Source: Christiangramia echinicola DSM 19838 (lineage in GTDB: Bacteria; Bacteroidota; Bacteroidia; Flavobacteriales; Flavobacteriaceae). Taken from it: 64,000 nt of DNA. Positions within the stretch are counted from its first letter, which is position 1, and each line of letters opens with the position of its first letter. The notes below the pieces were generated by a model, which was given only the letters and a program-made list of their open reading frames with translations, ran no database searches and was not told the DNA's origin. Where the stretch lies: assembly GCF_000423065.1 (NCBI RefSeq), contig NZ_AUHG01000012.1:310001-374000 (forward strand), in the 5' to 3' direction. The position numbers and the translations under genes were made by a program. Shown piece after piece: positions 2-36,394 of the stretch.

Positions 2-1108
2 TTTTTGGCTAACAACATCTTGAGACAATATTTTGAAAGTGGGATACGCCTGGTCATTATAGATCTGGGAGGATCCTACACCAAATTTGCTAAACTATAT
101 CCGGGACAATATACTGTACTTCGCTATGAGAGTGGAAAGAGTCTAGGTATCAATCCTTTCTACATCAATAATAAAAATGATCTAAGCCCGGAACGTCTGG
201 AAGATTTGTCGGTATTCTTATTCGAATTATTTGCTTCTGATCTGAAAGTAACCAAAGCCCAGTCGGTTTCCATAAAAAAGATATTACGCCACTATTATAT
301 AAACACACCTGGGAATCATTCTTTGGATAGCTTTTATCACTTCATCGAAAGCAATCAAAAAGAGCTGTTGACCAAACTCAAAATCCATCCCGACTACTTC
401 AACATTACGAACTTCTTACATATCATGTCGGAGTATGTTGGCGATGGTCTATATAGTTTTCTATTTGAAGTCAGCAAAGATCAGACCTATAAAATCGAAG
501 ATAAACGTCTGATCGTTTTTGAACTGGATGAAGTAAAGGATAACAAGGAAATCCTTTCGGTGATGTTGAAGCTGATCAAGTCGGCTATACAAAGAACCAT
601 ATGGAAGAATCGTTCGGAAAAAGGAATTATCCTTTTTGATGAATTTGCCAAACAGCTAAAATTTGAAAACGTACTAGAGAGCGTAGAATTTTACTATCAG
701 GCTATTCGTAAACAGAACGGTGCTATCGGAATCATTTTACAATCGATCAACCAGCTTCCCAATAATTCCACTTCAGCGAGTATTCTGGAGAACACACAGG
801 TGATTTACAGCCTCCATAACGAAAAAGGATATGAAGAGCTGGTAAGACGTTTAAACCTCTCCAAACATGATCTTAACCAGTTAAAATCTATTAAGAACAA
901 CCTTACCGGATCCAGAAAATACACAGAGATCTTTATAAAGATTGGAAAACAAAGCAATGTATTCCGTCTCGAAGTACCCATGGAAGTTTATGCGGCATAT
1001 CTGACTGACGGGTCAGAAAATGACAGCATCATGGCGCTGTATGACCAACATAACTCCATGGAAAAAGCAATTACAGAATTTATTAATCCTAAAAACAGGA
1101 AATTATGA
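2..1108 (+). CDS. traG: TraG-type conjugation ATPase (VirB4 family), 3' part
   Basis: This is the C-terminal part of the ATPase that powers the Bacteroidetes type IV conjugation apparatus at the inner membrane. The reading frame is open at the window edge, and the first residues (FLANNILRQYF) fit the stretch just after a Walker A loop, so the P-loop is presumably just outside. A Walker B-like strand (IILFDEFAK) lies near residue 210 of the visible part, and a sensor-like ILQS segment near residue 244. The stop codon overlaps the next start (ATGA), which indicates one transcription unit with the TraI-like gene. The apparent TTG start at position 5 is only the first possible codon, not a real start. 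Confidence 0.85.
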   Translation, partial: FLANNILRQYFESGIRLVIIDLGGSYTKFAKLYPGQYTVLRYESGKSLGINPFYINNKNDLSPERLEDLSVFLFELFASDLKVTKAQSVSIKKILRHYYINTPGNHSLDSFYHFIESNQKELLTKLKIHPDYFNITNFLHIMSEYVGDGLYSFLFEVSKDQTYKIEDKRLIVFELDEVKDNKEILSVMLKLIKSAIQRTIWKNRSEKGIILFDEFAKQLKFENVLESVEFYYQAIRKQNGAIGIILQSINQLPNNSTSASILENTQVIYSLHNEKGYEELVRRLNLSKHDLNQLKSIKNNLTGSRKYTEIFIKIGKQSNVFRLEVPMEVYAAYLTDGSENDSIMALYDQHNSMEKAITEFINPKNRKL

Positions 1109-1686
1109 AAAAGCAAACTCTAACTTTGATTGTAGTAATGGCTATAGCCTTATTATTGCCTGCACGCGCTGCGTGCCAGGGAATGCCCGTTTATGATAAT
1201 ACCAATTTTATCAGTCTGGTAAAATCCCTTGTAGAATCAGCAAAACAGACAGCCAATCTGGTAAAGACGGTTAATTTTCTAAAAGCTCAAAAGGAGAATA
1301 TAGAAAAGGTCAATAGTGTCATCCAGGATCTGAAGGCTGTTCGGGAGATCGGAAGAAATAATCAGCGATTGATCAGCGTCATGCAGAATGACCTTCGAGA
1401 CATTCTGGATTCTCCGTATATCGAACCCGATGAAGTAACCAGGGTCACAGAATCCTTTGATGCCGTGGTAGAAAATTCCCTGGCAACCCTGGATTTTATC
1501 GATGAGATCTTATCCAGTGACCATTTAAAAATGAGTGATGCCGAGCGAGCCGAGGTATTAAAACAAAAAGAACTGGAAAGCCAGGAAATGGTGAATGATG
1601 TGCGCTTGAAAACCAGGCGTTATCAGGAAATCATCTCGTTCCGGAAGATGCAGGACAGGATCAATAACCGGGAAACTGCTTTTTAA
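1105..1686 (+). CDS. traI: TraI-like periplasmic conjugal transfer protein
   Basis: A 193-residue protein with an N-terminal signal peptide (hydrophobic stretch to about residue 22, ending ARAACQG) and a mostly helical, charged body with likely coiled-coil segments around residues 40-110. Size, position between TraG and a multi-spanning TraJ-like protein, and the overlapping start (ATGA with traG) fit the Bacteroidetes TraI (DUF4141-like) component, thought to be a VirB5-like periplasmic part of the mating channel. The stop overlaps the next start by one base (TAATG). Family assignment rests mainly on context and architecture. Confidence 0.7.
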   Translation: MKKQTLTLIVVMAIALLLPARAACQGMPVYDNTNFISLVKSLVESAKQTANLVKTVNFLKAQKENIEKVNSVIQDLKAVREIGRNNQRLISVMQNDLRDILDSPYIEPDEVTRVTESFDAVVENSLATLDFIDEILSSDHLKMSDAERAEVLKQKELESQEMVNDVRLKTRRYQEIISFRKMQDRINNRETAF

Positions 1687-2531
1687 TGACAGCTGGTGCC
1701 ATCATATCCGCAATAGGTCTTGAATATATTGATACTGTGTTCCAGACGATTCAGAGTAGTGAGTTCTCGCAATACACTATAGTAGGAATGAAAACCTTAG
1801 CTGTTTTATTTTTCCTGGTCAACATTCTGAAGAAATATAATGAGGGTGTAGCGGAAAAGGATGGATATACGTGGGGGCTTAGTCCTGGTGAACTAGCTAA
1901 GAACTTTGCCGTGGTATTGCTGGTTATTTTCTCTACTCAGATTTTAGGATTTTTCGATGGGATCCTGGTAGCCATAGAGAATCAATACCGTGAAACTGCT
2001 CCTGCCCTCCTCCCCTTACAAATGCAGGAGATCCCGATTGAAGAAGATGTATCCGCACTGGACGCGATGCGCAAAGCCATGGCCTTATTATATGAAGCAC
2101 TGGTCACTCCATTATATGGTTTTAAAACTTTTGCCTTTCTGATCAGCCTGTTTTTATGGATCCTGGATCTGTTCATTTATCCCCTTTTCCTTGCGGAGCG
2201 CTATTTTATCCTGGGAATCATGCAGGCTTTCTTCCCTTTGATCCTTAGTCTTTCGGTATTTGAGAAATTCCGTTCGATGGCCTATAGCTTTTTCAGATTA
2301 TATGCGGGAGTATATATGCTTGTTCCTGCTTTTTTTCTGGTCAATGTATTTATTAACGCGCTATATACGGAGATCAACACCAACTTCTGGCAGAACCTTT
2401 TCGGTACCGATTTCGGGAGTAATTTCTTTGCTCCGGTGGTGGAACTTGGATCAATTGGTTTTATCGTCTTTTTAAAATTCAAATTATACCGCCGCGCCAT
2501 CTCCTTTACCCTGAGATTATTTACCAGCTAA
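1686..2531 (+). CDS. traJ: TraJ-like inner-membrane conjugal transfer protein
   Basis: A 281-residue polytopic membrane protein with hydrophobic segments near residues 35-50, 73-95, 145-185, 190-205, 210-230 and 250-265. It follows the TraI-like gene with a one-base overlap and precedes TraK, the conserved position of TraJ in Bacteroidetes elements. TraJ is regarded as the VirB6-like inner-membrane channel component. No catalytic motif is expected. The product name follows from topology and gene order. Confidence 0.75.
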   Translation: MTAGAIISAIGLEYIDTVFQTIQSSEFSQYTIVGMKTLAVLFFLVNILKKYNEGVAEKDGYTWGLSPGELAKNFAVVLLVIFSTQILGFFDGILVAIENQYRETAPALLPLQMQEIPIEEDVSALDAMRKAMALLYEALVTPLYGFKTFAFLISLFLWILDLFIYPLFLAERYFILGIMQAFFPLILSLSVFEKFRSMAYSFFRLYAGVYMLVPAFFLVNVFINALYTEINTNFWQNLFGTDFGSNFFAPVVELGSIGFIVFLKFKLYRRAISFTLRLFTS

Positions 2532-2598
2532 AACCTTTGCCAGTTATGGAAAAGATAGATCAGAATAAGCAGATGTATAAACACTAAACACAAAAACT

Positions 2599-3213
2599 AT
2601 GAAAACTCCTTATAAAGATATTTATACCGTCTTAAAACTCAACCGATTTATTGTATTAGCAATTGTTATAAGCGCACAAATATTTAGTGCTTTTGCCCTC
2701 TGGGTCACCTTCACAACGAATAAAAAAGCGTTGAACTCTACTTTTGCCATTAACAATGACGGGAGTATTATTCCTTTAAAACTAGTCACCCAAAAAGAAA
2801 ATTTTCAGGTGGAAGCATTAGCACATTTAGACCTGTTCCACACTTACTTCTACAACATTCACGCCACCAATTATGAGAAAAACCTTGAAAAGGCATTATG
2901 GTTGGGTAATGGTTCTGTTGCCGATCTATATCGCCAGAAAAAAGCCGAAGGTGTTTATAATCGTCTGCTTCAATATTCATTGGTACAAAAGGTCATCAGT
3001 ATCGAATCGGACATCGAAGAAATGGATGATCATTATAGGTTTAGAACAACTACCGTTTTTGAAATCAACCGAGGCTCTATTGTAGACACTTATGAACTTA
3101 TTTCCACGGGAAAACTTATAACGGTAGACCGGCATTTTCCAAATAATCCTCATGGCCTCCTGATTACGGATTACTTTGAAAACAGTCTGAGAAAAATCGT
3201 TCCTGAATCTTAA
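2599..3213 (+). CDS. traK: TraK-like conjugal transfer protein
   Basis: A 204-residue protein with one N-terminal membrane segment (about residues 17-36) and a periplasmic domain. This is the bitopic layout of the Bacteroidetes TraK family, related to VirB8 scaffold proteins. It starts 67 bases after traJ and is followed within 8 bases by the TraM-like gene. A body beginning near residue 45 with mixed alpha/beta character fits the VirB8 fold. Identification is by order, size and topology. Confidence 0.75.
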   Translation: MKTPYKDIYTVLKLNRFIVLAIVISAQIFSAFALWVTFTTNKKALNSTFAINNDGSIIPLKLVTQKENFQVEALAHLDLFHTYFYNIHATNYEKNLEKALWLGNGSVADLYRQKKAEGVYNRLLQYSLVQKVISIESDIEEMDDHYRFRTTTVFEINRGSIVDTYELISTGKLITVDRHFPNNPHGLLITDYFENSLRKIVPES

Positions 3214-3221
3214 AACATATT

Positions 3222-4154
3222 ATGATGAAAATAGAAAAGAATAAGATCGTGGTTGGGAGTATCATCGCTATCACCATCATTTTTTTGATCTCTTATACGA
3301 TCATGATCACAGGTGATGATCAAGATGAGGACAAGAACCTAAAACAAACAACGGTTCCAGAGCTGCAGGAAGATCCACCTTCCTATGATTCGAAACTGGA
3401 TGCCATCAACGATTTAAAAGAGGTAAGGGAGACCAATGTCCCCAGTATTTATGATGAAAAACTGATGGATTCTCTGGGTTATTACGATGCAGAACTTCCC
3501 GAAAAGGAAAAACAGCACATCATCGATAGTATATATTTTTTGGGAGAAAGAAGGTATGCGGAAGTAAGTGCGGTGGCTGCCCGGTCTAAAAAATCAATTC
3601 CCAGGAAAATTCAAAGGACAGATACTTCAGCAATTCGGGAGGAAGTGAAGATCCAGGCTAAAGAGATGGGACTGGAGCACCAGCTTTTCTTTGCATCCAA
3701 TCCTAAATCAAACAACATTGCTGCTTCTGAAACTACCGATTCGGAAATTTTAGCTGTAGTCGATGGTACCCAGGTAGTCAGGTCTAATTCCCGGCTCCGT
3801 TTACGGCTATACCAGGATGCTACTATCAGCAATAAGCCGATCCCAAAGAATACCCCCATTTTTGGTTTTGTAAGCTTTCAGCCTAACCGGGTGCTTATCG
3901 AAATAGAGAATTTAAAACATCAACCAACCGCATTAAAAGCTTTTGATCTACAGGATGGAAGTGAAGGTATTTATGTGGAAAATAATTTTCGTGAGGAAGC
4001 CACTACCGAAGTCCTGGATGATCTTTTAGGAGAGATCAATATTCCCAGTGTGCCACAGGTAAGTGGTATAGGCCAGCTCTTAAAAACCAAAAATCGTAAT
4101 GTAAAAGTTACGGTCCTGAATAACTATAAACTCATATTAAAACCAGGTTTATAA
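3222..4154 (+). CDS. traM: TraM-like conjugative transposon protein
   Basis: A 310-residue protein with a single N-terminal transmembrane segment (about residues 10-28), a charged low-complexity linker and a C-terminal domain from about residue 165. The last third (SNSRLRLRLYQDATI, GFVSFQPNRVLIEIENL) resembles the VirB10-like domain of Bacteroidetes TraM. VirB10-type proteins span the envelope and link inner- and outer-membrane parts of the channel. It lies between TraK- and TraN-like genes as in other Bacteroidetes elements. No traL-like small gene is present between traK and traM. Confidence 0.78.
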   Translation: MMKIEKNKIVVGSIIAITIIFLISYTIMITGDDQDEDKNLKQTTVPELQEDPPSYDSKLDAINDLKEVRETNVPSIYDEKLMDSLGYYDAELPEKEKQHIIDSIYFLGERRYAEVSAVAARSKKSIPRKIQRTDTSAIREEVKIQAKEMGLEHQLFFASNPKSNNIAASETTDSEILAVVDGTQVVRSNSRLRLRLYQDATISNKPIPKNTPIFGFVSFQPNRVLIEIENLKHQPTALKAFDLQDGSEGIYVENNFREEATTEVLDDLLGEINIPSVPQVSGIGQLLKTKNRNVKVTVLNNYKLILKPGL

Positions 4155-5021: not shown

Positions 5022-5048
5022 CTATCCGAAATCAGGATTTTCAGATAG
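5022..5048. terminator. Hairpin between convergent traN and abiEii
   Basis: CTATCCGAAA (5022-5031) pairs with TTTCAGATAG (5039-5048) with one mismatch and a 7-base loop. It lies where the + strand transfer operon meets the minus-strand AbiE operon and overlaps the abiEii stop. There is no strong U-tract on either side, so a bidirectional terminator is plausible but weakly supported. Confidence 0.4.
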
Positions 5049-6015
5049 ACCACTTTATATCTTTTAATCTTGATCCGATATTCCTCAAAGATTGCAATAC
5101 CTCTTTTTCGTCTGAAAGTTCTCCGGTTAGTAATTCCCTGAATTGACCATTATAAGTTGGGCTTAAACTTTCCCAAACCTTCTCGGTATTTTTAAAAAAC
5201 AAGGATTCTAACGGGTGTTTGGACAACCATTCTTTATCTGTGGGAATAGCTTTATCATCATCTTTCCCTACCTGCAAAAGCATTACTTCAAAATCATCTG
5301 ATTTTAGGAATAACGAAATTTTATACTCCTGCAGTAACTGGTGTAAATCGTAGGTATGTCGGATCTTATTTTTTAAATCCTCCAAAGGATTCTCCGTATA
5401 TGAAAATCTTATCAGGCTAATGATTTTTTCACAAAAGGTTCGTTCGATGCTTGCCGTTAAATTAAAAGGTTCAAGTTGATATTCTTTTATAAGGTCCGGA
5501 TTGTTTGTGGTCGCAATAAACTGTGTGATCATTGAGTGTACGCTGACTTTTTGCGACGGGTAAGATCTGTCTAAGCTGGAAACTTCCAAAACAATCTGGT
5601 CCCGAACCTGCCCATATATACCTTTTACCCCTACTTTATCATAACCGTACACCAACTTTCTAATTTTGCCTTTTTTATTTTCAAGGGGGTGATCAGGAAC
5701 AAGCTTCATTTCTGATTCCAACACACTGGTGACCTTCTTAAGTTTTCTTTTTAAAGAGTTATCCGTTTCTCCATCCTCTTTTATGACAACGAGATCTATA
5801 TCCTCGGAAAACCGTTGAATGATACCGTAACATTTAGACAGCGAAGTGCCTCCTTTGAATACGGTTATATCTTTGGAGTTGGGATCCTTAAAGATGATTT
5901 TAAGCGCAAAGGTCACCCAATAATCTTTTTCTATATAGATTTCAGAAATTCCGAAATGTTGGGCAGTGGCCACGATGGCACCTTCAAAAGCGGCTTTATA
6001 GTGATGTAATTTCAT
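5041..6015 (-). CDS. abiEii: AbiEii-type nucleotidyltransferase toxin
   Basis: The 324-residue protein carries the nucleotidyltransferase signature of AbiEii/AbiGii toxins: GGTSLSK (about residues 55-61) followed by SEDIDLVV (about 71-78), whose aspartates would bind metal. Conserved K and D residues appear later (RTFCEKIISL, YDLHQLL). AbiEii toxins act as the second half of a type IV toxin-antitoxin and abortive-infection system; related enzymes modify tRNA acceptor ends. The start overlaps the abiEi stop by one base (TAATG), so the two are translationally coupled. Its place between traN and the coupling protein suggests roles in ICE maintenance or phage defence, which is an inference. Confidence 0.88.
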   Translation of the reverse strand: MKLHHYKAAFEGAIVATAQHFGISEIYIEKDYWVTFALKIIFKDPNSKDITVFKGGTSLSKCYGIIQRFSEDIDLVVIKEDGETDNSLKRKLKKVTSVLESEMKLVPDHPLENKKGKIRKLVYGYDKVGVKGIYGQVRDQIVLEVSSLDRSYPSQKVSVHSMITQFIATTNNPDLIKEYQLEPFNLTASIERTFCEKIISLIRFSYTENPLEDLKNKIRHTYDLHQLLQEYKISLFLKSDDFEVMLLQVGKDDDKAIPTDKEWLSKHPLESLFFKNTEKVWESLSPTYNGQFRELLTGELSDEKEVLQSLRNIGSRLKDIKWSI

Positions 6016-6737
6016 TAAGAAATATTCCAGTTTGAGATCGTAGGTAAGATACTTTTGGATAAGCCAAATTTATAAGTACTCAGATAATTGATACTGTCTT
6101 TTAGTGATGTACTGAGAGAATTTAAAGAAAGAGCTTCAAGGATGGCACCTAACAGAGCTCTTACTTTTGGGGGATATGCTTTGGCAATAGCAATCAGTCT
6201 ATTTTTCTCTACATCAGTAAGCTCCTGAATTTTTTTCCTTAAAAAGGTGATTCCCCTTTTTTTATCCATATCCGGAATATTTTTAAAATCTTTTATAACG
6301 TCTAATAATTGAAGTAACGATACATTGTTTTCTTCAACGGGCACATACGCTTTTGCAGGTTTAATGACAAGATTACCTATTTTGGCTTTGATCTCTTTGT
6401 TACCTGCTACCCTTACCACATTCGATATTTGAGTAGTCAATCCCAGTTCATTGTATAGTCGCAATCCGGTAACGTATGCAATCTGTTTGTCCTTTTGAAA
6501 GAGATACAAGTCAAGTAGTGTAGTTTCTCTGGGCATTAATTCCCCAAAAGCAGTTTGTTTAGGTTTGTAATATACCCCATTTTTATATCTCCTGATTACA
6601 TCATCCTCAACTAATCGGCTTAATGCCTTTGCAGCAGCCAGGAATTCATTTGGAGGAATTCCAAGGGTATCATAGGTAAAAACCTCTCCTGAATCTAACT
6701 TATTAATTTTATTTTTAATGGATGCTGCAATATTCAT
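6015..6737 (-). CDS. abiEi: AbiEi-type antitoxin/autorepressor (DUF6088-like)
   Basis: The protein has an N-terminal winged-helix region (SIKNKI... GEVFTYDTLGI, then an alternative helix-turn-helix with RLVEDDVIRRYKNGVYYKP) and a larger C-terminal domain. This is the layout of AbiEi antitoxins, which repress their own promoter. A longer reading frame reaches 6800, but a consensus promoter (-7 box TATCTTTG at 6745-6752) lies inside that extension, only 7 bases upstream of the ATG at 6735-6737. I therefore take 6737 as the start; the transcript would be almost leaderless. The stop overlaps abiEii. Confidence 0.85.
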   Translation of the reverse strand: MNIAASIKNKINKLDSGEVFTYDTLGIPPNEFLAAAKALSRLVEDDVIRRYKNGVYYKPKQTAFGELMPRETTLLDLYLFQKDKQIAYVTGLRLYNELGLTTQISNVVRVAGNKEIKAKIGNLVIKPAKAYVPVEENNVSLLQLLDVIKDFKNIPDMDKKRGITFLRKKIQELTDVEKNRLIAIAKAYPPKVRALLGAILEALSLNSLSTSLKDSINYLSTYKFGLSKSILPTISNWNIS

Positions 6738-6744
6738 AGTACAG

Positions 6745-6776
6745 CAAAGATAATCTTTAAACTGAATTATGTCAAG
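6745..6776 (-). promoter_or_regulatory. Promoter of the abiE operon
   Basis: On the minus strand TTG (6775-6773) is followed after 20 bases by TATCTTTG (6752-6745), matching the Bacteroidetes sigma consensus (TTG, 19-21 bases, TAnnTTTG). It lies just 7 bases upstream of the proposed abiEi ATG and decides that start. Confidence 0.75.
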
Positions 6777-6799
6777 TTTTTTCTGGTTTTTACTTGACA
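6770..6799. promoter_or_regulatory. Inverted-repeat operator, probable AbiEi site
   Basis: TGTCAAGT (6770-6777) and ACTTGACA (6792-6799) form a perfect 8-bp inverted repeat with a 14-base spacer, so half-site centres are 22 bases apart (two helical turns). The promoter-proximal arm contains the -33 TTG. AbiEi antitoxins are known to bind inverted repeats at their own promoter, so this is a strong operator candidate. Confidence 0.7.
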
Positions 6800-6815
6800 A
6801 ATATTTTTATTGTAA

Positions 6816-8396
6816 TTATTTAAAAATTGATTTAGCTTCCTGATAAATTCTTTCGAAATTCATTTCCAAATCGGTTGAAGAGAACTCTTTAGCTGCTCCA
6901 GGAAGCTCTCTTAAAATCTTTTGTAATTTAAACTGTACTTTTTTGTCCTTACCATCAGCATAGGTAATAAACTCACCCTGTTTCAATCGAAAGAAAACAT
7001 CTGCTCTAATTTTCGGAATTTCATTTTCCCCGGTAATCACTCGTGTATCAAAATTTAGATTATGGCCGCTGCTCACACTCTTAGTAGGATCCTTTATAAT
7101 CTCAAAGAAACGTTCATAATATTTAGCAGTATCAGGATCATTTACCTTCCCAAAGAACTGGTAAGATAGATTGCTTAGAATAGCCTTACTAGCTTTATCC
7201 CCATACATCATATCATTCTGGATCTTATCCTGCATCACATATACGGTGGCAATATCATAACTTCTTAAAGTAGCTGGAATGCGGTGCATATTCAGTAAGC
7301 GTAAGGTAGGTGCTTCTTCCATCAATAGAAATGACGGATTGGAATTACGTACACTCATTTGTTTGGTAATGGTATGGATGATGGCTGCAATTACCGCAGA
7401 ATAGGAAGATTCAAATTTAGGGTTATTCACAACGGAAATTACTGCGGGGTTTTCGGGATTATTTATATTTAAAGGAACGTCATCTGCTGAGAGGGCCATA
7501 AAGATACTTTGGGTACTGATTCGTTTTAAGGCATTGGCCAGGGTACTCTTAACACCTGCAGTTTGTCTTTCCGAATCTTTACCGCTAATAAAGGCATCTG
7601 CCATCGCCCTGGAGGTCCTGTTCGAGTCCAGGAAAGCTATAAGACTCTCAGTATCCAGAAACTGGTAAATCGCTATTAAATGGGGCAATGTACAATATTG
7701 TGGATAGGATGTTTTCAATTTCCAGATCATCCCTCCTATTAAACCTTCTGCAGCATCATTAAAGAATTTTGTGGTTCCGCTTGTGCCTGATTCCTTTTGC
7801 TCTAATAGATTCTCAATGAGAACTCTGGAAATTTCATTGACGCTCTCTTCATTTTCCAGATAGCGGGGTGCAATCGGATTGACCCGGTGGATAATCTTAT
7901 CAAAGGAGATGATCTTAAAAGGAATATCTGAATCCTTAAAAAGCGGATAAGCCATTTCGGTAAGTTCAAAATCCTTGTAATCATGAATCACCCCACAGAA
8001 ATTGTACTGCTGAAAATGCTTTAGAAAACCATAGACCACACTTTCCGTTTTTCCACTACCGGCAGACCCGATAATCGACGCACCGCGTTTGATGTTAGCA
8101 ATTTTAAAGTCTTTGCCACTGGTTTTAAAATTTACCTGGTACTTCCTGGCAACCTTACCCTTTATTTCAGTGGAATGACAAAAAACATAGAAAACCGTAT
8201 TGATTAGTAATAAGGGGCAACCCACAAACAGTAGGCCTTCTATAATCAGCTGGGGATAAAAGTAGAAAAGAATAAACCCTATTAGCAAAAGGGAATTGAT
8301 CAAAAATGCATATCTGGAAATACGGTATAAACCGTAGAAAAGCAGACTACAAAAAATGACGATTATGGTGGTATTTACAATGTTGAATTCTTCCAT
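6816..8396 (-). CDS. VirD4-family coupling protein (T4CP, TraG/MobC-like)
   Basis: A 526-residue protein with N-terminal membrane helices (about residues 8-25, 30-50, 55-73), a Walker A motif GSAGSGKTES near residue 110 and a Walker B-like strand FLLMEEAPT near residue 358. Coupling proteins bring the relaxase-DNA complex to the conjugation channel and pump the strand. The short two- to three-helix N terminus and the FKTSGKDFKIANIKRGA lead-in are typical of Bacteroidetes coupling proteins next to MobB-type relaxases. It lies 19 bases downstream of the relaxase gene on the same strand. Bacteroidetes nomenclature varies (MobC, TraG), so no symbol is given. Confidence 0.88.
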   Translation of the reverse strand: MEEFNIVNTTIIVIFCSLLFYGLYRISRYAFLINSLLLIGFILFYFYPQLIIEGLLFVGCPLLLINTVFYVFCHSTEIKGKVARKYQVNFKTSGKDFKIANIKRGASIIGSAGSGKTESVVYGFLKHFQQYNFCGVIHDYKDFELTEMAYPLFKDSDIPFKIISFDKIIHRVNPIAPRYLENEESVNEISRVLIENLLEQKESGTSGTTKFFNDAAEGLIGGMIWKLKTSYPQYCTLPHLIAIYQFLDTESLIAFLDSNRTSRAMADAFISGKDSERQTAGVKSTLANALKRISTQSIFMALSADDVPLNINNPENPAVISVVNNPKFESSYSAVIAAIIHTITKQMSVRNSNPSFLLMEEAPTLRLLNMHRIPATLRSYDIATVYVMQDKIQNDMMYGDKASKAILSNLSYQFFGKVNDPDTAKYYERFFEIIKDPTKSVSSGHNLNFDTRVITGENEIPKIRADVFFRLKQGEFITYADGKDKKVQFKLQKILRELPGAAKEFSSTDLEMNFERIYQEAKSIFK

Positions 8397-8415: not shown

Positions 8416-9447
8416 TTAAATTCCGATAGAGCTTGATTTAACTGCTATATCCACTCCCCTTCTCAACCGGTTAAAAACTTTTAAAGCCAACTGGGCTTTA
8501 TTGGTTGGGATGTTTGGCATCATGGGCATTCCGGTTCCTTTTAGCATTTTCATGGCAATTGCTTTTTCACTGGTTGGCAGTTTCATCAAATTTGAAAAAT
8601 AACTTCTAGGGTTTTTAATGAACTCTTTCCTGGCAGTATAGGTTTCCACGAAGTTTCGTTGATATCCGAAGTTCTTATCGAATGTTTTTTCAGCTTTTCC
8701 AAAGAATTTATCACGATCAAAACCCCGTTTGACTGTTTTCCCATTTAATTCAACCTTCGATGCTCTGTATTTGCTACCGGGAGATAAGCTATACTTATTC
8801 GAAGCATCCTTACGGCTCACTATAATATGGATATGGCTTTGGTTCCCTTCTTTGGGCATTCCCTGTACAATTCGTTGCCCCGCTTGTTTATGGGGAGCTG
8901 CTTTTTCCTGTTTATTGATCTCCCGTTTCATCTGAGCAATATTCCCAGGTTGTTCTCCGCGCTCAACTTTTTGGATATCATTTTTTAGTTGAAGTATTTT
9001 GGTAGCAAAGGGCTGATTTTCCCGTACCTGTTTATCGGTGCCTTTAAAAAATCGTTGATGTTCAATTTTGGCGTAGTATTTTATATCATCAATATTGACC
9101 GGTCGGCCATTGAGTTCACGATTAAAAGAAGCCACATAATCTTTCATCACTTCGCGGGTATATTTTTTTAGATCTTCGCTGTTGTTTTTCAACCTGTTCA
9201 ACTCGTATTTTGAAGGGCTTATCGTAATAGAATAAAACCTTGGTTCCGTTTTTTCCAGTTTAGCGGTATTGGCATCAATTTCCCGAACTACTTCCTCTGC
9301 TGAAATTTGATCATTATACTGATTGAAAAAGAACTCCTTATCCTGCGAATCCAATCCCTCATTTTCCTTTTCCAGATAGTCAACAAAGTCGGCAGATCCT
9401 TGAGAATAATTTCCCCCTAATTTTTGTGCTGTGATGGTGATATACAT
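8416..9447 (-). CDS. Relaxase/mobilization protein (MobB-like, DUF5712)
   Basis: A 343-residue protein beginning MYITITAQKLGG, with the metal-binding His cluster of conjugative relaxases: HIHIIVSRKD (His205, His207) plus an upstream IEHQRFFKGTD segment around residue 129 that supplies a further His. Relaxases nick oriT and stay bound to the 5' end of the transferred strand. This DUF5712-type family is found in Bacteroidetes elements next to BfmA/BtgA-like proteins, as here. It follows the small mobilization gene by 10 bases and precedes the coupling protein by 19. The nucleophilic Tyr cannot be assigned with certainty; Tyr22 to Tyr24-like N-terminal candidates exist. Confidence 0.85.
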   Translation of the reverse strand: MYITITAQKLGGNYSQGSADFVDYLEKENEGLDSQDKEFFFNQYNDQISAEEVVREIDANTAKLEKTEPRFYSITISPSKYELNRLKNNSEDLKKYTREVMKDYVASFNRELNGRPVNIDDIKYYAKIEHQRFFKGTDKQVRENQPFATKILQLKNDIQKVERGEQPGNIAQMKREINKQEKAAPHKQAGQRIVQGMPKEGNQSHIHIIVSRKDASNKYSLSPGSKYRASKVELNGKTVKRGFDRDKFFGKAEKTFDKNFGYQRNFVETYTARKEFIKNPRSYFSNLMKLPTSEKAIAMKMLKGTGMPMMPNIPTNKAQLALKVFNRLRRGVDIAVKSSSIGI

Positions 9448-9457
9448 CTTTAATAAT

Positions 9458-9847
9458 TTATAAGTCTTGTTGATTTCGTTCCTGATATTTGGGTTGCTTT
9501 TCTTCCGTATTTTTCTTCTCCAGAATCAGGGTTTGTTTTTTAGGTTCAGCTTCCTGAAACAAAGATTGCATCATGGCTACCGTTGGTTTGGTTTGTCCTT
9601 TCTCAATATCTTTTAAGATAGCGATGACTCCACTGATCCTTTTTTTGATCAGGTTTTCCAGGGTTTGCATTTTAGGGCCCATAGATTCCGTTGGAGAAAT
9701 TCCATTATCCTCAAAAAACTCCAGCATCAACAGTAGGCTTATCGATTGAGATTTTGACATAGCACGGCTAAACCGTCTAAATTTTTTAGCCACAGAAGAC
9801 TTGATCTTTAAAGTCTCAAATTGCTCTTTTTTATATTCTTCATCCAT
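9458..9847 (-). CDS. BfmA/BtgA-type mobilization accessory protein
   Basis: A 129-residue basic protein with a short DNA-binding-like N terminus (KIKSSVAKKFRRFSRAMSKS, then SLLLMLEFF) resembling ribbon-helix-helix mobilization proteins, and a charged C-terminal tail rich in K, E and Q. Proteins of this size upstream of MobB relaxases in Bacteroidetes belong to the BfmA/BtgA group, which bind oriT and help relaxosome assembly. It is the first gene of the mobilization operon and lies directly beside the hairpin-rich candidate oriT. Its coding start is followed upstream by two 13-bp direct repeats. Confidence 0.78.
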   Translation of the reverse strand: MDEEYKKEQFETLKIKSSVAKKFRRFSRAMSKSQSISLLLMLEFFEDNGISPTESMGPKMQTLENLIKKRISGVIAILKDIEKGQTKPTVAMMQSLFQEAEPKKQTLILEKKNTEEKQPKYQERNQQDL

Positions 9848-9848
9848 T

Positions 9849-9903
9849 TTTTAGTAAAAAACTGACTATTTTTAAGGGGCTGCGGAAGGATTTTAGTAAA
9901 AAA
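9849..9903. repeat. Two 13-bp direct repeats upstream of the mobilization gene
   Basis: TTTTAGTAAAAAA occurs at 9849-9861 and again at 9891-9903, 42 bases apart (four helical turns). The first copy abuts the start of the BfmA/BtgA-like gene. Regular helical spacing suggests binding sites for a mobilization or regulatory protein. Confidence 0.6.
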
Positions 9904-9935
9904 TGATTTCCGAATTCCCAGAATTTAAATAATTT

Positions 9936-9970
9936 AATTTTAAATAACTGATATTCAGTTATTTAAAATT
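9936..9970. repeat. 16-bp perfect hairpin in candidate oriT
   Basis: AATTTTAAATAACTGA (9936-9951) and its exact reverse complement (9955-9970) are separated by TAT. The arms share TTTAATTTTAAAT with the palindrome near the integrase (36,466-36,507). Confidence 0.75.
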
Positions 9971-10023
9971 GAGATGAAATATATAACGCGGCTTTGCCCG
10001 TTATCCTCTTGCTATTCCTTTTC

Positions 10024-10040
10024 GTCCCGCCAGGCGGGAC
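10024..10040. repeat. GC-rich 17-bp palindrome
   Basis: GTCCCGCC, one A, GGCGGGAC: a perfect 8-bp inverted repeat in an otherwise AT-rich stretch. It would form a tight stem in single-stranded DNA or RNA and may be part of oriT or a transcription stop; its role is unproven. Confidence 0.6.
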
Positions 10041-10370
10041 AAAAATCTCATACAAACTAGACCAATGTCCATTTGCATTTTGAGGAATAAAATTCCATTA
10101 TGTAAAAAATTATGATTGGTAAGGATATCAGCGAAAGTCAAAAATTGGGATACCTTACATAAAACTATGTGCTGAAGTTCAGCTAATTAAATATACCATA
10201 TTTTTTTTCAAAAGGAAATTAATATGCTATAGAATGGCTAAAATTTTTTAGTTTTATTATTCATTTATTTCCATACTTAGAAATTAAAAAAGGAAGATTC
10301 AGGTAACAGCGAATTTTCCTTTTCTAAAATTTTAGACTACCGGTAACTAATAAAAATTTGAGGGGTAGAA

Positions 10371-10425: not shown

Positions 10426-10875
10426 TTACAGGATACCTTCATCCGCAAAGCTTACATAATCACCATCTGGTGTCAGTATTAAATGATCCAGGACTTTAAT
10501 ATCTAACAGTTCCGCTGCTTTGGTAATTTTTTCAGTCAGGCGTTTATCTGCTTCGCTCGGTTTCAAAGTTCCGGACGGATGATTATGTGCAAGGATTACA
10601 GAACAGGAAAGGCTTTTAAGAATAACCGCAAACAAGATGCGTAGATCTACCAAAGTACCTGTAATTCCACCGGTAGAAACTTCAAAAATACCTTTCACTT
10701 TATTTGCGTTATTAAGCAGCATTACTTTAAAAGTTTCCTGCAAGCCGATCTGGTCTTTGTTCCAGGTATTGTATAATAGTTCAGCAGCATTAACGGATGA
10801 ACTTATTTTAGGCGCCTGAGAGATCTTAAAATTCCCCTGATATTTTATCGATATTTCATTAACTTTCGTTTTCAT
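10426..10875 (-). CDS. RadC-like JAB-domain protein
   Basis: The protein has the JAB/MPN metalloprotease-type motif HNHPSGTLKPSEAD, with the paired His and downstream Ser and Asp expected to bind zinc. Short RadC-like proteins of about 150 residues are common on mobile elements; despite the old DNA-repair name their function is not settled. A longer frame begins at 10926, but MKTKVNEISIKY (start 10875) matches the usual N terminus of the family and I prefer it. It follows ssb on the same strand and is closed by a terminator. Confidence 0.85.
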   Translation of the reverse strand: MKTKVNEISIKYQGNFKISQAPKISSSVNAAELLYNTWNKDQIGLQETFKVMLLNNANKVKGIFEVSTGGITGTLVDLRILFAVILKSLSCSVILAHNHPSGTLKPSEADKRLTEKITKAAELLDIKVLDHLILTPDGDYVSFADEGIL

Positions 10876-10948
10876 TTTAATCTGATTTAAGGTTAAAATT
10901 GAAAAAGAGGGCGTTACCGTGAGCAAGTACCCGCCCTCTATTAATTAA

Positions 10949-11308
10949 CTACTGCTGGCTTTCTGTCTTAGCAGTTCCATTACCTAAAAGAAGAATTTCA
11001 CTGGCTACCACTTCGGTGACATATCGCTTCTCTCCTTCTTTGGTCTCATAGGATCGAGTGGTCAATTTACCTTCAATGGCAATTTCTTTTCCAGTGCCCA
11101 CATAATTCTCTACGATTTCAGCGGTTTTTCCCCATGTCACAACATTGTGCCATTGCGTATCCTGTACTTTTTCCCCTTTTGAATTTTTATAAAATTCATT
11201 GGTTGCAATTGAAAAGCTGGCTACTTTTTTACCACTTTCAAGATTTTTGATTTCCGGGGTTTGTCCCACATTTCCGATTAACTGAACTTTGTTTCTAAGC
11301 GTACTCAT
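10949..11308 (-). CDS. ssb: Single-stranded DNA-binding protein
   Basis: The 119-residue protein is a single OB-fold SSB: NKVQLIGNVGQTPEIK, VASFSIATNEFYK, WHNVVTWGKTAEIVENYV, and GKLTTRSYETKEGEKRYVTEVVA are all hallmark strands. It lacks the long acidic C-terminal tail of chromosomal SSB, as is usual for SSBs of mobile elements. It would coat the transferred single strand during conjugation. It forms a short operon with the radC-like gene. Confidence 0.92.
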   Translation of the reverse strand: MSTLRNKVQLIGNVGQTPEIKNLESGKKVASFSIATNEFYKNSKGEKVQDTQWHNVVTWGKTAEIVENYVGTGKEIAIEGKLTTRSYETKEGEKRYVTEVVASEILLLGNGTAKTESQQ

Positions 11309-12302
11309 AATTAAAAGATTTAAAAATTAATAATTGATTTACTTATTATATCCGGGGCGTTTTCCTGTTTTTGATTTTTTTTACTTCGCTTCCGGGTATG
11401 TTGTTTTGAAATGATTTCATGAGATTTTTATTTGATTTACTTCCTATAGAGCCGTGTGCTGTTACCTTTTTTGATGCTGATACATTTTCAAGAGTTAGAA
11501 TTAGGGAAGACTTATAAAAAGGAGTATGCGACTGGCTTATGCAGTCTGTACTAACTTCTAAATATTGGTATTTTGCATTACAAAAAAGGTAGGAACAGCA
11601 ACGGCCGGGAAGGAAATGGAAATGCTGAAATTAAAAAACAACCGGAAGCGAAGTAAATGGATAAATGGAATTCCGATTTAGCGGGCGTCCTTTATTATTT
11701 AGTTTATAGAATAAGACTATAGGATGAGCACAAATTACTATATATCGAATACATCAAGAGAAAAATGAAAAGGATGCTCAAGATATCCTAAAGGAAGCTT
11801 TTTACCCGACATGGAGCATTTTGCAGAATGAAGCGGTAATGTGCTGACTGATTTACAACCAGAAAATTAATGAGATTAATAGTCACAATCTTTGGCGTTT
11901 TTTTTATTCCAAACGAAATACATGGTAATTTTTTTTTGGTTCCTAATTAATTAGTGATTCGACCTAGCTATCTGTTAAAAAGACGTGTTATAGTTTTTAA
12001 TATTGTTATAACTGGATTAAGAACAATATCTATTAACCATGGAAATGCGAAAATCATAAATTCACTTCTAAAAGGAGAGTATTGGTCTAAACTCCTCTAA
12101 GTTTTAAATAGAATTTACAGGCTATATATTCAAAGTATTGTTGATTTGTTCCTTTAAATCAGTGCCATTTTATAATTGTTTCAATTCACTGATAGTTAAT
12201 GTCAATTTATACACTAAACTAAATACCATAAAATTTAGAGTAGAAACAGATTATCTCCAAGTATTATTTCCGCCATAGTTCTTTATAGTTCCTGATTTGA
12301 CT
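11309..12302. other. Gene-free region with a large inverted repeat
   Basis: About 1 kb without a convincing gene. Its first third holds the imperfect inverted repeat at 11,380-11,657. The remainder is AT-rich with scattered stop codons in all frames. A short + strand run near 11,779-11,851 reads as a peptide fragment (DAQDILKEAFYPTWSILQ) but has no clean start and no family I recognise; it may be gene debris. Confidence 0.6.
11380..11657. repeat. Large imperfect inverted repeat (about 280 bp)
   Basis: The outer arms match perfectly over 16 bp: TTTACTTCGCTTCCGG (11380-11395) and its reverse complement (11642-11657). Moving inward, GCCGTGTGCTGTTACC...TTTTTTG (11451-11473) mirrors the segment 11581-11605 with small indels, and AGAGTTAG (11491-11498) mirrors 11551-11559. 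The apex contains a small GACTG/CAGTC hairpin (11530-11546). The whole could fold into one long stem. Candidates are a replication or conjugative-transfer origin, a structured RNA, or two diverged inverted copies of a short element. Confidence 0.7.
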
Positions 12303-35062: not shown

Positions 35063-36394
35063 TCAAAAATTGATAACACTATCCAAAGCTTCATCAGCAT
35101 CCCTATGGATAAAATTTGCCTGATAATTTAAAGTGGTTTTTAAATCACTATGGCGATATAACTTCTGTAACATTAAAGGATGGATTCTGTCTCCGGCAAT
35201 ATTTCCAAAACTATGTCTTGCAATGTGATTGGATAAATTCTTTTCGATTTCACACTCAGCAGCTAACAACTTCAAATATTTATTTAACTGTTTCGTCGTG
35301 TTTTTTGTTTTTCTATAAAGATCTTCTGGATCTTTAGGATCTACATTCTCAAGAAAAGGAAATACATATCCTTTATTAGATCTTTTAAAACTTTTATAAT
35401 GTCCAAGTATGACTTTAGCTTTTTCTGGAATCTTTAGGCTTAATGGTTTCTCGTTCTTATGCATTACGTAATAAAGACGATCATCTTTAAAATCAGACCA
35501 CTTTAACTTAAGAATGGCGGATATACGTATCCCCGCGAAGTAAAAAGCAACTAACCATATGTTTTTAGTATGCCAAATAATTGAATTAGCTTCCAGTTTA
35601 AGCAATTCTATGCGTTCAATTTCTTTCTTGTTTAAACCAACTTTATTCCCAGAGGTCAGCTTTATTTTTTCTTTATCACCAGCGAAAGGATAATATTTGG
35701 GATCTACAACTTCTTCTTTTATTGCAATATTAAACAAGGTTCTAATAAATATAAGTTGATTTGTAATGGTTCTAGTCTTTTGTCCCAGGTAAGCCGCGCA
35801 AAAGGTTTTATATCGTTCGATAAATGACTTATCGATATCTTGAAAAGTTAAACGATTATTGAGTTTAAAATAAGAAACCCCATCCAGAAAAGAATTAGCT
35901 GAACGCCTAGCATTACTAATACGATCATTTCTTCTCTGTTTTATAGCTTTTATGACCTTTTGCCGCGGGCTTGTTCTATTTAAATTTAAAAACTCTTCAA
36001 TATTAAACAGAATGGATAATTCAGATTTGGCTACTGAATAAGTTTTTCGATCGTATTTTTGTTCAATTCTTTCTGTAGCTAAAAGGAAAAATGATTTTCT
36101 AATCTTAGTTCCTACTAATTTTTTCTTTATCTCTTTAATTGATATCCTATCCTCATTCTGAAAAGAAATATTAGTAGCCTCTGTCAATTTTTTCCTTAAA
36201 AAATTATTAAGACGTTGAGAGTTTTGATGGCTTCTCTTTACCATACCACTTTCCTTATCCCAATCTTTTTCCAAAACATACTGTCCTAGAAAACTATAAT
36301 TAGTAGCATAATTTTCACTTATTCTAAGTGCTAAAGGCGCTGTACCATCTTTCCGTTCTTTATTCTTTCTTCTTACTACTTTTATAGATGCCAT
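35063..36394 (-). CDS. int: Tyrosine recombinase (ICE integrase)
   Basis: A 443-residue phage-type integrase with an N-terminal arm-binding domain (ASIKVVRRKNKERKDGTAPL), a SAM-like core-binding domain (about residues 120-235) and a C-terminal catalytic domain. The active-site residues are visible: Arg290 (FAGIRISAILKLKW), His390 and Arg393 (HIARHSF), His415 (RHSDLKT) and Tyr424 (TLNYQANF). It would insert and excise the ICE at the tRNA-Met 3' end about 170 bases away. The gene is transcribed inward, away from the att site, as is usual. Confidence 0.93.
   Translation of the reverse strand: MASIKVVRRKNKERKDGTAPLALRISENYATNYSFLGQYVLEKDWDKESGMVKRSHQNSQRLNNFLRKKLTEATNISFQNEDRISIKEIKKKLVGTKIRKSFFLLATERIEQKYDRKTYSVAKSELSILFNIEEFLNLNRTSPRQKVIKAIKQRRNDRISNARRSANSFLDGVSYFKLNNRLTFQDIDKSFIERYKTFCAAYLGQKTRTITNQLIFIRTLFNIAIKEEVVDPKYYPFAGDKEKIKLTSGNKVGLNKKEIERIELLKLEANSIIWHTKNIWLVAFYFAGIRISAILKLKWSDFKDDRLYYVMHKNEKPLSLKIPEKAKVILGHYKSFKRSNKGYVFPFLENVDPKDPEDLYRKTKNTTKQLNKYLKLLAAECEIEKNLSNHIARHSFGNIAGDRIHPLMLQKLYRHSDLKTTLNYQANFIHRDADEALDSVINF

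Follow-up and report, generated by a model that had tools for sequence, protein, structure and literature searches.

Single-stranded promoters have been shown in the F plasmid (PMC9849209) and have been proposed more widely, through similarity to Frpo or through E. coli-type boxes, in an article whose main text does not contain the word 'bacteroid' (PMC11541004). Frpo is described as both a promoter and a second-strand origin in the title of Masai and Arai (1997). The sections of PMC9849209 that deal with Frpo2 report that its deletion from F gave no increase of an Ssb-F reporter in transconjugants, and that deletion of Frpo2 or ssb did not lower the efficiency of conjugation. Among ICEs, ICEBs1 carries a functional sso1 downstream of oriT. 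Its authors expected an sso in most ICEs, described sso function as dependent on structure, and argued for a placement between oriT and the recombinase side, with the second strand made before the attachment site is duplex (relevant sections of PMC4595007). The literature searched, a set with most subscription papers and all preprints outside it, yielded no account of an element of this kind in ICEs of Bacteroidota; 'ssDNA promoter' and 'Bacteroid' co-occurred nowhere in this set, and 'Frpo' occurred with 'Bacteroid' only in papers that, to judge by their titles and opening lines of the abstract, are unrelated or a general review.

The window analysed here is a 64-kb stretch of the genome of Christiangramia echinicola DSM 19838, whose gene content (Table 1) we take to be that of an ICE arranged as recombinase, cargo, hairpin, ssb, radC, oriT-like site, mobABC and tra. 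Behind mobC, positions 5041-6800 encode an AbiEii-like nucleotidyltransferase toxin and a DUF6088 protein, likely a toxin-antitoxin pair. A preliminary description of the window had reported a large imperfect inverted repeat with a perfect 16-bp outer stem. The repeat proved real and its boundaries correct. A repeat search recovered arms of 23 nt that are 87% complementary (11380-11402 and 11635-11657), and self-matches between 11380-11395 and 11642-11657 confirmed that the outermost 16 bp are perfect. The segment had also been placed 'downstream of nothing', imprecise wording for a hairpin situated 71 bp 5' of ssb, a gene of the - strand. Folding of the 278 nt gave a single long interrupted hairpin, IR-A, with a DNA fold of -58.1 kcal/mol as compared with -22.8 +/- 3.4 for shuffled sequences (z -10.4; 0/200 shuffles as good). 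RNA folds gave z-scores of -7.7 for the + strand and -9.9 for the - strand. When the 64 kb were scanned on both strands in 2549 segments (278 nt, step 25), the lowest value of either strand was found at start 11376, which on the + strand stood at -6.9 SD after GC correction; the runner-up was an area at about 9776-10200, the oriT-like region.

Table 1. Features of the ICE window and of related loci (positions are those of the window unless loci are given).
Feature	Position	Strand	Basis or remark
Large imperfect hairpin (IR-A)	11380..11657	+	better-folding strand is + (ssb template)
Direct repeat of part of the GATTTACTTCCTATAGAGCC block, GATTTACTTATTATATCC, left flank	11336..11353	+	conserved outside the hairpin
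Most conserved block of left arm, GATTTACTTCCTATAGAGCC	11434..11453	+	39-sequence alignment
Apical helix, ACTTATAA (11510-11517) / TTATGCAGT (11537-11545)	11510..11545	+	pair counts
TATTTTGC, TNTTTTGC in most copies	11569..11576	+	right arm
Apparent decayed R2 copy	11672..11850 (boundaries approximate)	+	by eye
ssb, single-stranded DNA-binding protein	10949..11308	-	PF00436 1.3e-34
radC-like JAB-domain gene	10426..10926	-	PF04002 4.1e-35
oriT-like site: hairpin 10024-10040, core AGCAAGAGG 10005-10013, hairpin 9984-10003	9984..10040	-	
mobA (BfmA/BtgA family mobilization protein)	9458..9847	-	NF041200 1.4e-30
mobB relaxase (MobB family, DUF5712)	8416..9447	-	NF041495 5e-122
mobC-like coupling protein	6816..8396	-	below NF041326 cut-off
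TraG, TraK, TraM profile matches, sub-cut-off	within 5-4154	+	profile search
Tyrosine recombinase match	about 35.1-35.6 kb, ORF 35063-36394		profile search
Type B element	loci L070-L074, L076-L080, L083, L085, L086, L089, L090, L105, L106		5' of ssb
R2, examples	loci L067, L063, L107, L088		right of hairpin

Frpo2, which is 5' of ssb in F, folded into a hairpin of ~317 nt (z -6.0). IR-A resembles it as a large imperfect hairpin (278 nt here) directly 5' of ssb, a long stem-loop in the Frpo-type position; that this is the leading region follows the polarity proposed below. The 500-nt Frpo2 region gave -124.4 on the transferred strand of F versus -115.5 on the other, and the former folded better in 5/5 related copies. 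IR-A and Frpo2 agree in that the strand serving as template for ssb has the better fold. Most genes of F from ssb to traM are on the strand of ssb, with one listed gene opposite, and in the window, too, ssb shares its strand with the transfer genes beyond it. The layout of the ICE resembles the order Frpo2-ssb-oriT-tra of F. No sequence similarity was detected alongside this likeness: a relative of IR-A (L014) had no blastn match (E 1e-3) in 72,556 plasmid records, where Frpo2 finds at least 5000. We favour, with a probability of about 55%, the reading that IR-A is a cis-acting, Frpo-like single-stranded promoter and/or second-strand origin that is non-homologous to Frpo.

BLAST of the segment against the host genome, a check proposed in the preliminary description for one arm, gave one strong match besides itself. 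This match covers most of the hairpin and belongs to a second ICE, in which it, too, precedes ssb and has a recombinase match (C6:109538-109993) right beside it. A MITE or other dispersed repeat is disfavoured by this result, and the earlier suggestion that the arms are ancient inverted copies of a ~110-bp element was not supported by it, the sole other strong match spanning most of the hairpin. That IR-A consists of such copies, or of a decayed transposon remnant, is barely conceivable: the outer 23-bp arms with their 87% complementarity would suit it, but there are no dispersed genomic copies, the synteny is fixed in dozens of ICEs, and the arms covary. A retron msr-msd or a DGR is, like IR-A, a compact structured segment, but has a cognate reverse transcriptase; both are disfavoured. 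The absence of a reverse transcriptase, observed earlier for the window, was found, within the sensitivity of PF00078, to extend to the whole genome (0 at E <= 0.001, in a search whose controls gave matches in 3/14).

A family scan found a BLAST match to the hairpin at E <= 1e-3 in 43 of 199 genomes, including that of C. echinicola, and at E <= 1e-8 in 30. A MobB relaxase match was present in 27 of these 30 as compared with 52 of the 199 overall. In a sample drawn by order the hairpin occurred in 10 of 395, all of them Flavobacteriaceae, the share of other families in the 395 being uncounted. The exact consensus pattern of the left arm had 0 matches in IMG/VR. In loci fetched around the better hairpin matches, ssb adjoined the hairpin in 20/20. 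A set chosen independently of the hairpin was obtained by a relaxase scan that reached close relatives only; it comprised 48 loci, which are not independent because several share one genome or are near-identical. Within the 44 that had ssb in the fetched DNA, the hairpin was directly 5' of ssb in 27 (partial in L065), and an unrelated structured element took that place in the other 17. The hairpin HMM match was opposite to the ssb strand in 48/48 loci having both. These sequence comparisons indicate that IR-A is a conserved element of Flavobacteriaceae ICEs, and the conserved synteny with ssb and the oriT-like site bears out the earlier idea that an element placed directly before ssb has to do with single-strand DNA; the replication origin named there as an example is a possibility. 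In L064, L065, L082, L101 and L104, a tandem pair of ssb genes lies behind one hairpin.

Covariation across related ICEs had likewise been proposed as a check. From 75 hairpin sequences, some of them duplicates, 39 were selected for alignment such that none were more than about 90% alike. The left arm was more conserved than the right. Counting was free of energy terms but applied to the consensus fold of the same 39 sequences: 78 pairs were counted over the 39 copies, and 90.3% of cells paired, a percentage biased in favour of the structure, which came from these sequences. Changes on both sides of a pair are the better evidence. They occurred at 37 pairs and in 195 cells, as compared with 61.5 +/- 6.5 in shuffles, which ignore relatedness, and 40-54 with slid partners. 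Four inner pairs of the apical helix were invariant and a fifth was present in 38/39 copies, while its outer pairs covaried; one inner pair was a T.G wobble in 39/39, accompanied by a bulged C. The observed covariation argues that the hairpin fold is under selection, one of the two explanations that the preliminary description had offered, and the outcome was the reverse of freely decaying arms with no homologue elsewhere.

In many copies an A-rich ORF extends across the left arm and its flank, and two motifs stood a multiple of 3 apart in 25 of the 31 sequences measured. A small protein in the ssb sense (..MGSKSK..MKS..DIISKS) was considered and rejected. Third codon positions were not enriched for differences (1414/1724/1716), synonymous changes were a minority (748 vs 2726 in 31/39 sequences, 296 pairs), and the frame is broken in the window's own copy. 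We read the A-rich frame as conservation at the DNA level, with a small protein less favoured.

The two strands of the hairpin are not equivalent. With wobble pairs forbidden, the consensus fold was -69.8 for both; with wobble allowed it was -73.0 for the - strand and -107.1 for the + strand, the latter value coming from a script with RIBOSUM scoring, where a standard tool gave only -20.1 kcal/mol on the same alignment. The + strand folded better in 38/39 copies with DNA parameters (one tie) and in 39/39 with RNA parameters. In an arm-to-arm alignment that scored both transition mismatches alike, the ratio of G.T to A.C on the + strand was 593:109, with G.T commoner in 39/39 copies; a composition control, in which pairs were shifted by 3-5 positions, gave 1.70:1. 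Much of the excess came from a nearly invariant left arm opposite a right arm alternating between A and G. Plain z-scores did not reveal the preference, the - RNA being at least as non-random as the +. Because wobble markedly lowers the energy of the + strand only, and because of the 593:109 ratio, the + strand, the template of ssb, appears to be the one under selection. This bears on a possible leader, attenuator or operator of ssb that would work through the - strand mRNA or as dsDNA. Such an element could account for the block directly repeated in the left arm and left flank, and for the greater conservation of the left arm, but we regard it as very unlikely: the - strand loses the wobble pairs, so that a leader in the mRNA would have the poorer fold (-73.0 vs -107.1 for the +).

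The strong wobble excess distinguishes IR-A from Frpo2 and is the chief result against equating them and in favour of an RNA form. There the ratio was 47:31, an observed 1.52 against 1.33 expected from composition, and since this hardly exceeds composition, IR-A is the more RNA-like of the two. The absence of the excess from the Frpo2 control is the reason that we keep a structured RNA as a serious rival, though an unlikely one. This would be a non-coding or long leader RNA of the + strand, running rightward and divergent from ssb and regulating, for instance, ssb or transfer. Beside the RNA-like excess of 593:109, the invariant U.G wobble and bulged C of the apical helix speak for it, as do the type B and R2 elements described below, which share the orientation and, once G.U pairs are admitted, are far more stable on that strand. 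However, in ssDNA, too, G.T is the better of the two mismatches, and deamination of C on an exposed strand would be expected to yield G.T. Further against an RNA, Rfam 15 at gathering score gave 0 matches in the window and two tRNAs only in five relative loci; TTG-N17-23-TANNTTTG was absent from the + strand of 37 left flanks, each taken with 60 nt into the hairpin segment; and no obvious T-run was seen by eye after the right arm. An RNA alone would also leave unexplained why a non-homologous element occupies the same place before ssb.

Bacteroidota have a promoter consensus of their own. No -35/-10 pair or conserved TANNTTTG was recognised in IR-A, which differs from Frpo in this respect and has no promoter consensus in its favour; TANNTTTG was present in 2/39 hairpins, in different places, and in 1/37 left flanks. 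TANTTTG was present at one place of the right arm in 21/39 hairpins. The segment 11569-11576 has a TATTTT that falls within a right-arm internal loop and a GC that was paired in 39/39 copies, and is at most a weak look-alike of the Bacteroidota -7 box.

The oriT-like site lies between radC/ssb and mobA and has flanking hairpins with compensatory changes. Inspection by eye revealed a similar core (one mismatch each) and a mobA-side hairpin 5' of btgA/bfmA in Bacteroides and Flavobacterium plasmids. We propose 9984-10040 as a putative MobB-family oriT. Of the 48 loci with both hairpin and ssb, 47 have the core, and core, ssb and hairpin shared one polarity in 47/47; L042, near a contig end, had no core. 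In L045 the mobABC genes lie inverted beyond the hairpin, on its other side, yet the order and polarity of core, radC, ssb and hairpin are unchanged. In other relaxase families, the cleaved strand carries the relaxase hairpin 5' of nic. If this rule holds here, + would be the T-strand, because the hairpin is on the mobA side of the core. Wobble at the oriT-like hairpins was mixed after deduplication (10:7, 2:7, 16:5 and 5:0), with 3/4 helices leaning to the other strand, and does not confirm this polarity. The available text of PMC5729914 gives no nic sequence. Relaxase genes are typically found in the lagging region, according to a passage of PMC11541004. From this position, the layout of F and the hairpin-nic rule, we infer that the + strand is transferred.

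With this polarity, IR-A is a strand-specific hairpin near the putative oriT of a conjugative element, and it lies between the oriT-like site and the recombinase gene, as argued for the sso of an ICE. It may be a pure sso for second-strand synthesis, with ssb expressed from an ordinary dsDNA promoter. The precedent is sso1 of ICEBs1, which has the same placement if + is transferred (PMC4595007, in the sections on sso1) and likewise consists of structured DNA that the presumed transferred strand of its ICE carries beyond oriT; the likeness is one of position and structure. Unlike sso1, IR-A is directly before ssb, a position that a pure sso leaves unexplained (48/48 loci having both). We consider this reading improbable, more so than the RNA. 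It also overlaps in part with the Frpo-like promoter and/or origin that we favour, Frpo having been described as both (Masai and Arai, 1997, title).

Two further structured elements were observed in these ICEs. Type B is a multi-branched structured region of ~350 nt that replaces the hairpin 5' of ssb in 17 loci, and a second hairpin was seen beyond it in the copies folded. Its best 280-nt folds were about -40 to -52 kcal/mol, with a z-score of -7.3 for the one tested. For the alignment 13/17 copies were used, four being dropped because their fold energies equalled those of kept ones. In the orientation of the hairpin, type B folded much better on the same strand when G.U was allowed. R2 denotes structured repeats of ~207-221 bp, which is also their spacing where they are in tandem; one or more of them lie right of the hairpin in many ICEs, before the recombinase or cargo. 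There were 57 nearly full copies in L040-L107. All 38 of those in loci with a full hairpin had the hairpin's orientation (38/38), the other 19 being in loci without a full hairpin in the retrieved DNA. With wobble allowed, the R2 consensus folded at -69.7 versus -38.3 for the other strand, and G.U to A.C was 104:21. R2 could represent further ssDNA hairpins or recombination sites.

If IR-A is a Frpo-like single-stranded promoter and/or second-strand origin, transfer may proceed as follows. The + strand would enter the recipient via oriT, followed by radC, ssb and the hairpin. The hairpin would fold as ssDNA, and its stem would offer host RNA polymerase or primase a double-stranded landing site, from which synthesis would leave toward ssb and oriT. 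The products would be an early ssb-radC mRNA and/or a primer for the second strand, as with Frpo in F, and the second strand would be started before the attachment site is duplex. Four points of this scheme are inferences: an oriT function of the oriT-like site, + as the T-strand, ssDNA as the active form, and use of the hairpin by a polymerase.

More tentatively, the Bacteroidota ICEs may possess their own class of single-stranded promoters or origins, used by a polymerase that ignores -35/-10 boxes. This class would have at least two non-homologous, interchangeable forms before ssb, IR-A and type B, and possibly further strand-specific hairpins such as R2. Were this true, zygotic expression from ssDNA would have had an origin separate from that in the F/IncI lineage. 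A structured, strand-specific element of this kind before ssb would suggest that conjugative elements in general need to express genes early from the incoming ssDNA and meet this need with unrelated sequences. With one hairpin, one gene and one oriT-like site, the locus would offer a direct handle for a test in a phylum whose promoter code is different.
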